Positions 8,860 to 14,880 of a DNA stretch of 64,000 nt are shown piece after piece. Location of the stretch: the NCBI GenBank assembly GCA_001544595.2, contig FCOH02000005.1, forward strand, positions 62,001 through 126,000. Direction: 5' to 3'. The DNA comes from Caballeronia peredens. GTDB taxonomy: Bacteria > Pseudomonadota > Gammaproteobacteria > Burkholderiales > Burkholderiaceae. The notes under the pieces were generated by a model. It worked only from the letters and a program-made list of their open reading frames with translations. It was not told where the DNA came from and searched no databases. Within the stretch, counting starts at the first letter, position 1. Every line of letters starts with the position of its first letter. A program made the translations under genes and the position numbers.

Positions 8860-9810
8860 ATGGACGACGGCACGAACGACGCGTGGATGATGCCGCCCGC
8901 CGATGATCGTCCCGACGACGACTTCGACGCGAGCGAGCGCCCGGCGGCGCGCATCGCGAAGAAGCGTGCTCGCGCGGCGGCGCCGTCCGTCGCGAATGAC
9001 GCAAGCGGCACGAACAGCACGAACAGCACGAACAGCACGAACAGCGCGAACAGCACGCATGGCGCGGAGAAAAGGCCGCGCGCCGCGCCGCGTTCCGACT
9101 TCCGGGTCGCGGAGCAACCGGGTTTCGTGCTGCATAGCTACCCGTATCGCGAGACGAGTCTCATCATCGATGTGTTCTCGCGCGATCACGGCCGCGTCGC
9201 GCTCGTCGCGAAGGGCGCGAAGCGTCCGCATTCCGCGTTGCGCGGTGTGCTGCAGACGTTTCAGCCGCTGGGACTGTCCTGGTCCGGCAAGGGCGAGGTC
9301 CGCACGCTGACCACTGCCGAATGGGTCGGCGGCATGCTGCCGCTCGCGGGCGACGCGCTGCTCTGCGGCTTCTACGTGAACGAACTGCTCGTCAAGTTCT
9401 GCGCGCGCGAAGACGCGCATCCGGCGCTCTTCAATCACTACGTTCTGACGCTTTCCCGCCTCGCGCACGACGAGCCCGCCGTACAGGTGCTGCGCTCGTT
9501 CGAGCGCGTCCTGCTGCGCGAAACCGGCTACGCGATGAATCTCGCGCGCACCGTCATGCGCCAGCCGGTCTTGCCGGAAGGCCGCTATGTGTTCGATCCG
9601 GACCGCGGCGTGCGCGAAGCTTCCGGCGATCTGCCCGCGCCCTGGCCGGTGATCGCGGGCCAGACGCTCATCGACATGGAGCGCGACGATTACACGAACC
9701 CGCAGACCGCGGCGCAAAGCAAGACGCTGATGCGCTTTCTGCTGAACCACTATCTGGGCGGCACGCCGCTCGCCACCCGTCAGATTCTGATCGACCTGCA
9801 AAAACTATGA
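8860..9810 (+). CDS. recO: DNA repair protein RecO with low-complexity N-terminal extension
   Basis: 316-residue RecO, which works with RecF and RecR to load RecA on SSB-coated single-stranded DNA. The OB-fold region begins at about residue 85 ([15 protein letters not shown]) and is followed by the family's helical C-terminal part with AFFNHYVL-like and [10 protein letters not shown] sequences. The first 80 residues or so are an extra Asp/Ala/Arg-rich and Thr-Asn-Ser-repeat segment, absent from E. coli RecO (242 residues). ATG 8860 is the only convincing start and lies 16 bp after era. The stop overlaps pdxJ (ATGA), so the two are translationally coupled. Confidence 0.93.
9010..9054 (+). repeat. 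In-frame 9-bp tandem repeat inside recO
   Basis: Five units of ACGAACAGC (the fifth is GCGAACAGC) encode [15 protein letters not shown] at about residues 51-65 of RecO. The unit is a multiple of three, so gain or loss of copies would change length without breaking the frame. Confidence 0.9.
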
Positions 9811-10996: not shown

Positions 10997-11038
10997 CCCG
11001 ACTTCAATCCAACCCGTATAAAAAGCCAATTGAATCCG

Positions 11039-12067
11039 ATGAAACGCACTCCCGGCCCCGTCATGCTCGATGTCGCCGGTACGACGCTCAACGACGCGGA
11101 TATCGAGCGTATCTCGCATCCGATGACGGGCGGCATCATTCTCTTCGCGCGCCATTATCAGGACCGCGCTCAACTCGTCGCGCTGACCGATGCGATTCGC
11201 GCGGTGCGCGACGACATCCTGATCGCCGTCGATCACGAAGGCGGCCGCGTGCAGCGTTTCCGCACCGACGGCTTCACGGTGCTGCCCGCGCCGGGCAAGC
11301 TCGGCGCCCTGTGGGACCGCGACGTGCTCGCCGCGACCCGCGCCGCGACCGCGTTCGGCTACGTGCTCGCGGCGGAGTTGCGCGCGTGCGGCATCGACAT
11401 GAGCTTCACGCCGGTGCTCGATCTGAACTACGGCCAGTCGAAAGTCGTCGGCGATCGTGCGCTGCACGGCGATCCGCGCGTCGTCACGATGCTCGCGAAG
11501 AGCCTGAATCACGGTCTTGCGCTCGCCGGCATGGCGAACTGCGGCAAGCATTTTCCCGGACATGGTTTCGCCGAAGCCGACTCGCACGTCGCGCTGCCGA
11601 CCGACGACCGGCCGCTCGAGGAAATCCTCGCCGCCGACGTGCGACCGTACGACTGGCTCGGCATGTCGCTCGCGTCGGTGATTCCTGCGCACGTCATCTA
11701 TACGCAAGTGGACGACAAACCCGCGGGCTTCTCGCGCATCTGGCTGCAGGACATTTTGCGCGGCAAGCTCGGCTTCAACGGCGCGATCTTCAGCGACGAT
11801 CTGTCGATGGAAGCGGCGCGCGCCGGCGGCACGCTCACCGAAGCCGCGACGGCCGCGCTCACCGCGGGCTGCGACATGGTGCTGATCTGCAATCAGCCGG
11901 AAGAGGCGGGCCGCGTGCTGGAACAACTGCGCTTTACGCCGCCGAAGATCTCGACGCAGCGTCTGCGGCAGATGCGTCCGCGCGGCAAGGCGCTGCGCTG
12001 GAGCAAGCTGCAGGCGCATCCCGATTATCAGGCGGCGCGCGCGCTGATCAGGGAGACGCTCGGCTAG
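11039..12067 (+). CDS. nagZ: Beta-N-acetylhexosaminidase NagZ
   Basis: 342-residue cytoplasmic glycoside hydrolase of family 3 that removes N-acetylglucosamine from muropeptides during cell-wall recycling; its products feed AmpC beta-lactamase signalling in bacteria that have it. Motifs seen are VDHEGGRVQRF near residue 65, KHFPGHG with the catalytic His region near 170, and SDDLSMEAA with the nucleophile Asp near 255. ATG 11039 is preferred over an in-frame TTG at 11030. It is the last gene of the block and is followed by a terminator. Confidence 0.96.
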   Translation: MKRTPGPVMLDVAGTTLNDADIERISHPMTGGIILFARHYQDRAQLVALTDAIRAVRDDILIAVDHEGGRVQRFRTDGFTVLPAPGKLGALWDRDVLAATRAATAFGYVLAAELRACGIDMSFTPVLDLNYGQSKVVGDRALHGDPRVVTMLAKSLNHGLALAGMANCGKHFPGHGFAEADSHVALPTDDRPLEEILAADVRPYDWLGMSLASVIPAHVIYTQVDDKPAGFSRIWLQDILRGKLGFNGAIFSDDLSMEAARAGGTLTEAATAALTAGCDMVLICNQPEEAGRVLEQLRFTPPKISTQRLRQMRPRGKALRWSKLQAHPDYQAARALIRETLG

Positions 12068-12155: not shown

Positions 12156-13553
12156 TCAGGACGATTCCAGCTTCATCCGCTGCAGCTTGTTGTAGAGCGT
12201 CTTCGGGCTGATGCCGAGCAGCGTCGCCGCGCGATGACGCGTGCCGCCGACCGCTTCGAGCGTCGCGCGAATCAGCATGTCTTCGACGTCCGCGAGCGCC
12301 GTGCCGACCGTCACCTGCACGCTGCTGCCGTTCAGGCCGCGCCCGCCCAGACCGCCGGGTTCGTCCACGCGCAACGTTTCAATGGTCTCGCCCGAGGCGT
12401 GATACGCGCGCCGCACGCGTTCGCGAATCTCGCGCACGTTGCCCGGCCAGTCGGTCGCGAAGCATTCGCGGATAAACGCCGGACTGATGCGCTTCGGCGA
12501 CCCGCTCGTGATCCCGGCAATGTGATTTTCGCGATTCAGTTCGTCGACGAGCGTCTCCGCGATCAGCGCGATGTCGTCATCGCGCTCGCGCAACGGCGGC
12601 AGCATGATCGACGAGGCCGACAGCCGCTGGAACAGGTCTTCGCGCATCGCGCCGCTCGCGACCGCTTCGCGCACCGGCGTGCGGGATGCGGCGATCAGGC
12701 GGAAGTCCGTCATGATCCGGTTGCTGCCGCCGACGCGCATGAAGGTCTGCGAGTCGAGCGCGCGGAGCAGCGCCTCCTGTTGCGCGGCCGGGAGCGAATC
12801 GATCTGATCGAGGAACAGCGTGCCGCCGCCGGCCTGTTCGAGCAGGCCCGGCTCGCGATTTTCGGCGCCCGCAAACGCGTTGCGCTCATGGCCGAAAAGG
12901 ACGCTTTCCATCGAGCGCGGCGTGCCGTCGCTGGCGTTGCGCTGGGCGGAGCAGTCGAACGTGACGAACGGGCCCTTGCGCCGGCGGCTCAACTGATGGA
13001 TCGTGCGCGCCGCGATCTTCTTGCCCGTGCCCGGGTCGCCGCAGATCAGCACGGCGGCTTCCGTCGGCGCGGTGTGTTCGATCAGATCGTAGACGTGCTG
13101 CATCGCGGCGCTGCGGCCGATCATGTCGCCGAAGTGGCCGAGTTCGCGCAGCGTCGAGCGCAGCCCCTGAACTTCCTCGGTGAGTTCGTACGGACGCGGA
13201 ATGCGCGCGAGCAGGCTGCGCAGGCGCGGTATGTTGACCGGTTTGAGCAGATAGTCCCAGATGCCGTGCCGCAGCCCTTCGATCGCGCTCTCGACCGTCG
13301 CGTTGCCGGTCATCACGATCACGGGCAGCGCGCCATCCGGCGGTTGCGAGGGCAGGCTCGGCAACAGATCGAGCCCGCTGCCGTCCGGCAGATTCAGGTC
13401 GATCAGCACGACATCGGGGATGAAGCGCGTCAGGGCGGAGCGCGCCTCGGCGAGCGTCGTCGCGGTATCGACGGAAAAGCCGTCTGCCGTCAAGATCGCG
13501 GACAGGCCGGAAAGGCTATTGGGATCGTCTTCGACAATTAGTGCGTGTGGCAT
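12156..13553 (-). CDS. NtrC-family response regulator with degenerate sigma-54 activator domain
   Basis: 465 residues in three domains. The receiver (1-115) has Asp8-Asp9/Asp10, phospho-site Asp52, Thr82 and Lys104, all intact. The AAA+ domain (about 142-375) has Walker A GDPGTGKK (172-179), but Walker B ends in Asp-Gln (249-250) instead of Asp-Glu, and the sigma-54 contact loop GAFTGA reads NAFAGA (225-230). Arg304 and Arg310 of the arginine-finger region and GNVREI are kept. A Fis-type helix-turn-helix lies at 430-461 (GGTRHRAATLLGISPKTLYNKL). By family knowledge these changes should impair ATP hydrolysis and sigma-54 contact, so it may act as a phosphorylation-controlled DNA-binding regulator instead. 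No sensor kinase is adjacent. Start ATG 13553 is chosen over a TTG six codons earlier. Confidence 0.9.
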   Translation of the reverse strand: MPHALIVEDDPNSLSGLSAILTADGFSVDTATTLAEARSALTRFIPDVVLIDLNLPDGSGLDLLPSLPSQPPDGALPVIVMTGNATVESAIEGLRHGIWDYLLKPVNIPRLRSLLARIPRPYELTEEVQGLRSTLRELGHFGDMIGRSAAMQHVYDLIEHTAPTEAAVLICGDPGTGKKIAARTIHQLSRRRKGPFVTFDCSAQRNASDGTPRSMESVLFGHERNAFAGAENREPGLLEQAGGGTLFLDQIDSLPAAQQEALLRALDSQTFMRVGGSNRIMTDFRLIAASRTPVREAVASGAMREDLFQRLSASSIMLPPLRERDDDIALIAETLVDELNRENHIAGITSGSPKRISPAFIRECFATDWPGNVREIRERVRRAYHASGETIETLRVDEPGGLGGRGLNGSSVQVTVGTALADVEDMLIRATLEAVGGTRHRAATLLGISPKTLYNKLQRMKLESS

Positions 13554-13714: not shown

Positions 13715-14059
13715 TCATTTCGGCCTGAGGTGCAGATCGTTACTCACGGATTGCACGCCCGGCACGCCGCGCGTCAACGCGAGCGCTTTCTGAGTCTGAA
13801 TCTCCGAATCCACATAGCCGGACAATTGCACGACGCCGCGATAAGTCGCGACGCTCACCGGCAAGGATTTCAGCTCCGGGTCCGCGACGAGCGCGGCTTT
13901 CACGCGGGCAGCAAGCGAGGCATCGTCATTGGCGAGTTCGCCCGGCGCGCCCGCCGTCGCCGAAGACGTCGACGTGCAGCCGGCGGTGAGCGCAAACGCC
14001 GGCAGCGCGAGCGCCGCGACGATCAACAACCGGCTTTCGATGTAAGGCGACTTTCGCAT
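13715..14059 (-). CDS. BON-domain lipoprotein
   Basis: 114 residues. There is a signal peptide with lipobox LTAGC, the lipidated residue being Cys28, followed by a short Ser/Thr linker. One BON domain covers about 45-112 (SLAARVKAALVADPEL, then VVQLSGYVDSEIQTQKAL, ending GVQSVSNDLHL). BON domains occur in periplasmic proteins such as OsmY and DolP that bind membranes or stabilise the envelope. ATG 14059 follows AGGA at good spacing. It lies alone between the response regulator and efp, both on the same strand. Confidence 0.87.
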   Translation of the reverse strand: MRKSPYIESRLLIVAALALPAFALTAGCTSTSSATAGAPGELANDDASLAARVKAALVADPELKSLPVSVATYRGVVQLSGYVDSEIQTQKALALTRGVPGVQSVSNDLHLRPK

Positions 14060-14231
14060 GTCGGTCCTGAAATCCTTATCCGCGCATTCGAGCAGGAAAC
14101 GTGCCACGCAGTTAATTTTTCCGATGTAAGCGGATTGCGTGCGCCATGCGCCGGTTTCCTGTTCGGGCGGCCTTCGGGTTAAACGGGGTGCGACCGGTAA
14201 AGTTTGCCTGAATTTGTCAAAAAATTCATGC

Positions 14232-14322: not shown

Positions 14323-14880
14323 TTACGCGCGGCTGCGGTATTCGTTCGTGCGGGTGTCGATTTCGATCTTGTCGCCGATGTTGCAGAAGAGCGGCACTTG
14401 CAGTTCGAAGCCGGTGTTCAGCTTGGCGGTCTTGAGAACCTTGCCCGACGACGTGTCGCCCTTGACGGCCGGTTCCGTGTAGATGATTTCCCGAACCAGC
14501 GTGGTCGGCAGTTCGACGGAGATGGCCTTCTCGTTGTAGAACACGACTTCGCAAGCCATGCCGTCTTCGAGGTAGTTGAGCGCGTCGCCCATCATTTCGG
14601 CTTCAACTTCGAACTGGTTGTAGTCGGCGTCCATGAACACGTACATCGGGTCGGCGAAGTACGAGTAGGTCACTTCCTTGCGGTCGAGCACGACGACGTC
14701 GAACTTGTCGTCCGCCTTGTACACCGTTTCCATGCCGGCTGCCGTCAGCAGGTTCTTGAACTTCATCTTCACGACCGCGGAGTTGCGGCCCGACTTGTTG
14801 TACTCGGCGCGCTGAACGACCATGGCATCGCTGCCGATCATGACGACGTTGCCGACGCGGAGTTCTTGTGCGGTCTTCAT
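14323..14880 (-). CDS. efp: Translation elongation factor P, Arg32 type
   Basis: 185-residue EF-P, which binds between the ribosomal P and E sites and relieves stalling at polyproline stretches. The loop that reaches the peptidyl-transferase centre reads [10 protein letters not shown], with Arg at position 32 where E. coli has Lys34. Arg32 is the residue rhamnosylated by EarP in Pseudomonas, Neisseria and Burkholderia-type bacteria, and earP is the next gene upstream on this strand. The three beta-barrel domains are complete (ending [12 protein letters not shown]). The frame is open beyond ATG 14880, but that start gives the standard length. Confidence 0.98.

Follow-up and report, generated by a model that had tools for sequence, protein, structure and literature searches.

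Loss of the GAFTGA loop from NtrC-type proteins has been described before, and individual regulators of this type are known to have parted from sigma-54. HupR, R. capsulatus NtrC, VpsR and Caulobacter NtrC are all without a working GAFTGA and all act at sigma-70 promoters (PMC3162934, PMC10274813). R. capsulatus NtrC requires ATP binding but not hydrolysis (PMC10274813), and Caulobacter NtrC both activates and represses, its own operon being among the repressed targets (PMC10274813). Among known activators, Asn at position 1 and Tyr at position 3 of the loop (as in NAYAGA) are found, and Ser is tolerated at position 4 (PMC3162934). Laboratory variants of PspF bear on both the loop and the Walker B motif. 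PspF E108Q is a constitutive hexamer, regardless of nucleotide and of T86A, with slow hydrolysis; alone it still remodels, yet this remodelling requires an intact GAFTGA (PMC4132715). Paralogous activators can also meet at one promoter, as VnfA1 and VnfA3 have sigma-54 promoters in common as binding targets and form hetero-oligomers (PMC9542535).

The gene described here lies within a 64,000-nt stretch of Caballeronia peredens DNA, referred to as the window, whose best match among the named genomes is C. glebae (98%). It is encoded on the minus strand (12156..13553), with its ATG at 13553 and its stop at 12156, and specifies a protein of 465 aa. Pfam searches place Response_reg at residues 5-114 (1.6e-23), Sigma54_activat at residues 144-316 (1e-50) and HTH_8 at residues 420-459, with AAA_lid_14 also present, which is the receiver, AAA+ and Fis-type HTH layout of a sigma-54 activator. 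The receiver (residues 3-115, 13209..13547) carries the active-site residues E8, D9, D10, D52, T82 and K104, invariant in 42 orthologues, as is expected of a phosphorylatable response regulator. The Fis-type HTH (residues 414-461, 12171..12314) is near-invariant among orthologues. Both domains had been described as intact in an initial, sequence-only reading of the window, and this agrees with the Pfam assignments and the conservation. The same reading called the regulator an orphan, and indeed about 41 kb separate it from the closest HisKA kinase on the contig (window position ~54693). Literature searches found no paper on the gene. At 8860-9810 the window also encodes a RecO-like protein, which is extended at its N-terminus by a segment containing a short Asn-Ser-Thr repeat (16 residues).

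The AAA+ domain (residues 143-389, 12387..13127) is a mixture of kept and altered motifs, much as first reported. Walker A (GDPGTGKK, residues 172-179), the arginine fingers R304 and R310, and GNVREI at residues 371-376 are retained. GAFTGA is replaced by NAFAGA (residues 225-230, 12864..12881), so the Thr or Ser of a sigma-54 activator at position 4 is missing and, like the sigma-70-acting NtrC-type group, the protein has no working GAFTGA. Walker B, in the context LFLDQID, reads LDQID (residues 248-252, 12798..12812), Gln250 replacing the Glu of the usual Asp-Glu pair after D249. In addition, Asp200 (12954..12956) aligns with PspF Asn64, the 'glutamate switch', a position at which the sister copy discussed below has Asn. 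The genome encodes 18 full sigma-54-activator domains, and that of the regulator scores weakest, with 175 bits against 205 for the next weakest. All of the other 17 domains have DE, and all but one (NSFSGA) fit G[AS][FY][TS]GA. Both of the changes first reported are thus present. Since Asn at position 1 and Tyr at position 3 occur in known activators, the damaging change in the loop is Thr to Ala; the Gln by itself may still permit remodelling, as it does in PspF E108Q. Judged from these motifs, the Caballeronia protein is very probably unable to activate sigma-54.

In an AlphaFold2 model most of the AAA+ domain has pLDDT values of 80-95 and the HTH is also well predicted. The receiver falls below 50, probably due to a shallow alignment and a receiver sequence that hardly varies, and interpretation is confined to the other two domains. 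The modelled AAA+ domain matches FlrC, NtrC4, FleQ, PspF and VpsR with Z scores of 25-28, indicating that the predicted fold is kept despite the loss of motifs. The earlier suggestion that this domain serves in oligomerisation or nucleotide sensing is compatible with such a fold.

Orthologues were gathered from named genomes and a family set, and motifs were tallied over distinct sequences. The genus labels used (g7, g8, g11, g15 and so on) are arbitrary numbers; we infer that g11 is Burkholderia sensu stricto and g8 Mycetohabitans. At 136 of 150 loci the gene is flanked by both efp, upstream on the same strand, and nagZ, downstream and convergent. In the window these conserved neighbours are elongation factor P (14323..14880, minus strand), followed by a terminator-like hairpin, and nagZ (11030..12067, plus strand). 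Thirteen further loci show one of the two genes, most being interrupted by a contig end. The remaining locus, the divergent L169 of g17, is situated elsewhere with neither neighbour; its DAFTGA and DE are intact, and it was rejected as a nagZ-efp orthologue and served as an outgroup only.

In each of the 46 distinct Caballeronia orthologues the GAFTGA Thr is replaced by Ala and the Walker B Glu by Gln, which rules out a private mutation. The proposed check, whether NAFAGA and DQ are shared across species, thus finds Ala plus Gln fixed within the genus. In most other genera the Walker B Glu is kept and the GAFTGA Thr has been lost by other routes. Trinickia has Ala at this position with DE intact, and named Paraburkholderia have Ser (19 distinct sequences), Gly, Asn, Ala or Asp there, combined with a Walker B that reads DE, NE or EE. 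GAFDGA predominates in g11, g8 has GAFDGA or GALDGA together with DR, and g16 has EN or DN at Walker B. The loop is deleted, inserted into or unrelated in g25, g15, g7 and two g20 sequences, with NDASPQ, SAIPSL and GIGA among the unrelated or deleted forms in other genera. The first arginine finger has been lost in Paraburkholderia and the second in g15, g7 and two g20 sequences, and in nearly all orthologues Asp replaces the Asn of the 'glutamate switch'. Orthologues with normal motifs, which would have spoken for mutations private to this strain, are confined to two g20 loci (L146 and L147) with full GAFTGA and DE, besides about 20 Paraburkholderia rows with the tolerated GAFSGA. As Ser is tolerated at position 4, the protein may remain sigma-54-competent in some Paraburkholderia, and with the two intact loci sigma-54 activation may survive in some species. 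The promoter of L146 and L147 is CGGCACGGTTTCTGCT, and the stretch of upstream sequence inspected at these two loci did not show the usual palindrome (see below).

A second gene of the same layout was found in the genome. This sister copy (G000:C35:287270-288595) is about 45-49% identical to the regulator, has the same three domains and the same class of Fis-type HTH, and is likewise an orphan receiver protein, its closest HisKA being about 11 kb away. A canonical copy occurs in every orthologue-bearing genome examined, part of g11 excepted, and G[SA]FTGA, DE and the switch Asn are kept in every one. In the tree the regulator and sister clades are sister groups with strong support, and L169, with its intact motifs, is the first branch on the orthologue side. 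The regulator goes back to an old duplication of a canonical sigma-54 activator gene in the same bacteria.

The two copies have fared very differently. Mean pairwise identities across 19 genomes holding both, given as regulator/sister, were 0.88/0.84 for the receiver and 0.90/0.96 for the HTH, but 0.57/0.87 for the AAA+ domain, 0.51/0.99 for the L1 region, 0.63/0.94 for Walker B and 0.51/0.99 for the arginine-finger region. Among four Caballeronia, the dN/dS of the regulator was 0.026 in the receiver, 0.021 in the HTH and 0.158 in the AAA+ domain, the last a sign of relaxed constraint against 0.054 for the AAA+ domain of the sister. On this pattern, input and DNA binding are under selection and coupling to sigma-54 is not. 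Fixation in Caballeronia, varied erosion in related genera, the near-invariant receiver and HTH, and the undecayed sister together indicate that the motif loss, as read from these comparisons, is a fixed functional change. The claim of a fixed rather than private loss of sigma-54 contact and normal ATP hydrolysis was thus upheld, across the genus and under strong constraint. The recognition helices differ (SPKTLYNKL in the regulator, SLKTLYNRL in the sister), and the binding sites of the two proteins may differ accordingly.

An alternative is that loss of any need for the protein has let the AAA+ domain decay, the gene being an incipient pseudogene. The regulator is frameshifted within the AAA+ domain at L170 and L171, in one case near the L1 loop, which may be breakage or sequencing error, and it is truncated in one genome (G035) and absent from another (G036). 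These losses are outweighed by dN/dS values of 0.02-0.03 in the receiver and HTH, by about 120 distinct orthologues with intact full-length frames, by a conserved promoter and by retention of the gene in the reduced leaf-symbiont genomes G018 and G026. With frameshifts at two loci only, the dN/dS values led us to reject this explanation as highly improbable. Equally hard to credit is that sigma-54 activation persists in Caballeronia through a compensated loop. NAFAGA does keep an aromatic residue and the Gly-Ala that follows position 4, and PspF E108Q remodels on its own; yet Thr to Ala impairs PspF engagement, also in combination with E108Q (PMC4132715), and the unrelated or deleted loops of other genera leave the loop without a common function.

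The strongest new evidence, which the initial reading had not noted, points back to sigma-54: the regulator belongs to a putative operon that begins at a conserved sigma-54 promoter, preceded by an enhancer-like palindrome. On the same strand, 161 nt upstream, lies a gene for a 114-aa BON-domain protein (13715..14059; PF04972, 2.8e-18) with a signal/lipobox-like N-terminus. From gene order and spacing, this gene and the regulator are presumed to share one transcript of which it is the first gene. It is preceded by a -24/-12 sigma-54 promoter, TGGCACGTTTCCTGCT (14091..14106, minus strand). Strict TGGCACGNNNNYTGCT sites number three in the 6.7-Mb genome, one each upstream of the regulator operon, rpoN and glnA, the latter two providing an internal positive control for the motif. 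A sigma-54 site was found in 107 of 121 distinct upstream regions of the regulator, compared with none of 121 on the reverse strand and one of 666 control windows. The palindrome GGCAAACTTTACCG (GGYAA-N3-TTACC; 14195..14208, minus strand) precedes the sigma-54 site by 88 nt. Palindromes of this type, GG(C/A)AA-N3-TTACC, are situated about 100 bp upstream of the sigma-54 site and beyond the efp terminator, and all 105 distinct site-bearing promoters score at least 8/10, as opposed to about 9% of shuffled sequences.

What lies between promoter and regulator has been exchanged, as seen in the window and in the upstream regions of L094, L096 and L130: BON is present in Caballeronia and in g7 and g15, CsbD (PF05532) in most Paraburkholderia, and the promoter directly precedes the regulator in Trinickia, g25, g8, g16 and one g20 sequence. 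The BON protein itself diverges fast, with 50-89% identity, next to a far less altered regulator.

If the regulator very probably cannot activate sigma-54, another activator must drive its operon, and the sister copy is a plausible and the likeliest candidate. The 30 sigma-54 sites examined genome-wide had their best palindromes at the regulator operon and at a site 1.6 kb upstream of the sister. Similar palindromes near the sister recur in two other Caballeronia and one g15 genome, and occur upstream of the sister gene at L175/L176, yet none was found near the sister in most other genera. In g11 the regulator has lost both the sigma-54 promoter and the palindrome in front of it; of six g11 genomes examined, two lack the sister and four have only a version about 60% identical on another replicon. 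Ahead of the regulator, g11 conserves a GGTAA-N3-TT-like block whose match to the palindrome is too weak to count. Regulator and sister have both been lost in G036. Similarity and this one single-clade correlated loss are suggestive of a tie between palindrome and sister. Co-variation of the palindrome with the regulator's HTH is uninformative, as that HTH does not vary.

The surroundings of the sister hold further sigma-54 functions. A second rpoN (L174:14924-16506; the genome has two) is close by. It is immediately preceded by a perfect sigma-54 site, TGGCACGGCGGTTGCT, which suggests that this rpoN is controlled by sigma-54 itself. Another BON gene is also nearby. A gene for a receiver-less sigma-54 activator (L174:6074-7673) diverges from a small gene of unassigned function that has a sigma-54 site and a CGTAA-N3-TTACC palindrome. 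This activator gene recurs next to the sister in other genomes, and its product could serve the promoter there.

The reading we favour, with a probability of roughly 45%, is that the orphan regulator binds DNA as a sigma-54-incompetent oligomer and probably exerts feedback at its own sigma-54 promoter, possibly also at the regulon of the sister. An unlinked kinase would phosphorylate the receiver and so control DNA binding. Because both PspF changes occur at the equivalent positions, the Caballeronia protein is predicted to form stable, ATP-loaded, sigma-54-blind rings with little ATP hydrolysis, as PspF E108Q/T86A does. Such rings could occupy the palindrome of the protein's own operon and either block the rings of the activator or join them as a sigma-54-blind subunit. 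The result would be negative feedback, or a tuning element, within a sigma-54 stress-type circuit. Mixed rings with the sister could tune its activity, as may be compared with the VnfA paralogues at shared sigma-54 promoters. A stronger form, in which a duplicated activator has become a dedicated natural antagonist, transcribed by sigma-54 and acting as an ATP-locked, sigma-54-blind ring at its own enhancer that holds down its own operon, and perhaps the sister regulon too, is put forward tentatively and is rather unlikely as a whole.

The regulator may instead act through sigma-70, as the four precedents named at the outset do, activating or repressing elsewhere when phosphorylated or otherwise switched, with the sigma-54 promoter merely setting its level. 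This possibility deserves to be taken seriously, although we doubt it. Besides the precedents, it draws on the HTH being invariant even in g11 despite the loss of the sigma-54 promoter there, which implies a use of the protein in g11 independent of that promoter and hence other targets. Against this, a search for further targets through the palindrome was negative, the exact window sequence having a single copy genome-wide, at the regulator's own operon, and two of the one-mismatch matches (L185 and L186) falling within genes; this is a weak test, the palindrome being a putative target only. A different role for the same protein would be as a non-engaging subunit that assembles with the sister into mixed rings and works at sigma-54 promoters as its required or modulating partner, without any competition. 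Hetero-oligomers are documented for VnfA1/VnfA3, with HrpR/HrpS and FleQ/FleT cited in the same work (PMC9542535), linked wild-type/E108Q PspF dimers are active (PMC4132715), and the AAA+ fold of the regulator is kept. PspF nonetheless needs several intact L1 loops (PMC4132715), and the fast divergence of the regulator's AAA+ and arginine-finger sequences (identity 0.51-0.57 across genera) is not expected of an interface conserved with a near-static sister, which makes a purely cooperative partnership improbable.

New here is the clade-wide record, from a group of soil and plant-associated bacteria, of a duplicate that decays while its sister stays frozen. So are the finding of the PspF T86A/E108Q pair in nature, throughout a genus, and the presence of a sigma-54 promoter before a sigma-54-incompetent regulator. 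The duplicated pair amounts to a natural experiment on the residual value of an AAA+ domain once it is uncoupled from sigma-54, and also probes whether decoy activators can control enhancer-dependent promoters. Since Caballeronia has fixed both of the changes that freeze PspF, the prediction of a stable hexamer without remodelling is directly testable.

The regulator resembles HupR and R. capsulatus NtrC in being an NtrC-type response regulator without a working GAFTGA. In those proteins, however, GAFTGA is deleted or otherwise changed, as opposed to Thr to Ala with Walker B Glu to Gln, and their sigma-70 targets are known, whereas sigma-70 action of the regulator is a candidate only. Caulobacter NtrC is similar in that GAFTGA is missing across a whole genus, but it has a cognate kinase, NtrB, and needs its Walker A and B residues (PMC10274813). 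VpsR of Vibrio cholerae shares a degenerate GAFTGA and acts at sigma-70 promoters (PMC10274813), and its AAA+ domain matches the regulator model (7v2b, Z 25.4, rmsd 2.3 over 241 residues); it differs in binding c-di-GMP, in its genetic setting and in sequence, with about 32% identity. GtrR of Burkholderia cenocepacia (7vbs, Z 24.4) has the same AAA+ fold and was rejected as an orthologue at about 33% identity. The E108Q and T86A variants of PspF carry the same two substitutions at equivalent positions (PMC4132715), but they are engineered and without a receiver, and a further difference of the Caballeronia protein is Asp in place of the switch Asn.
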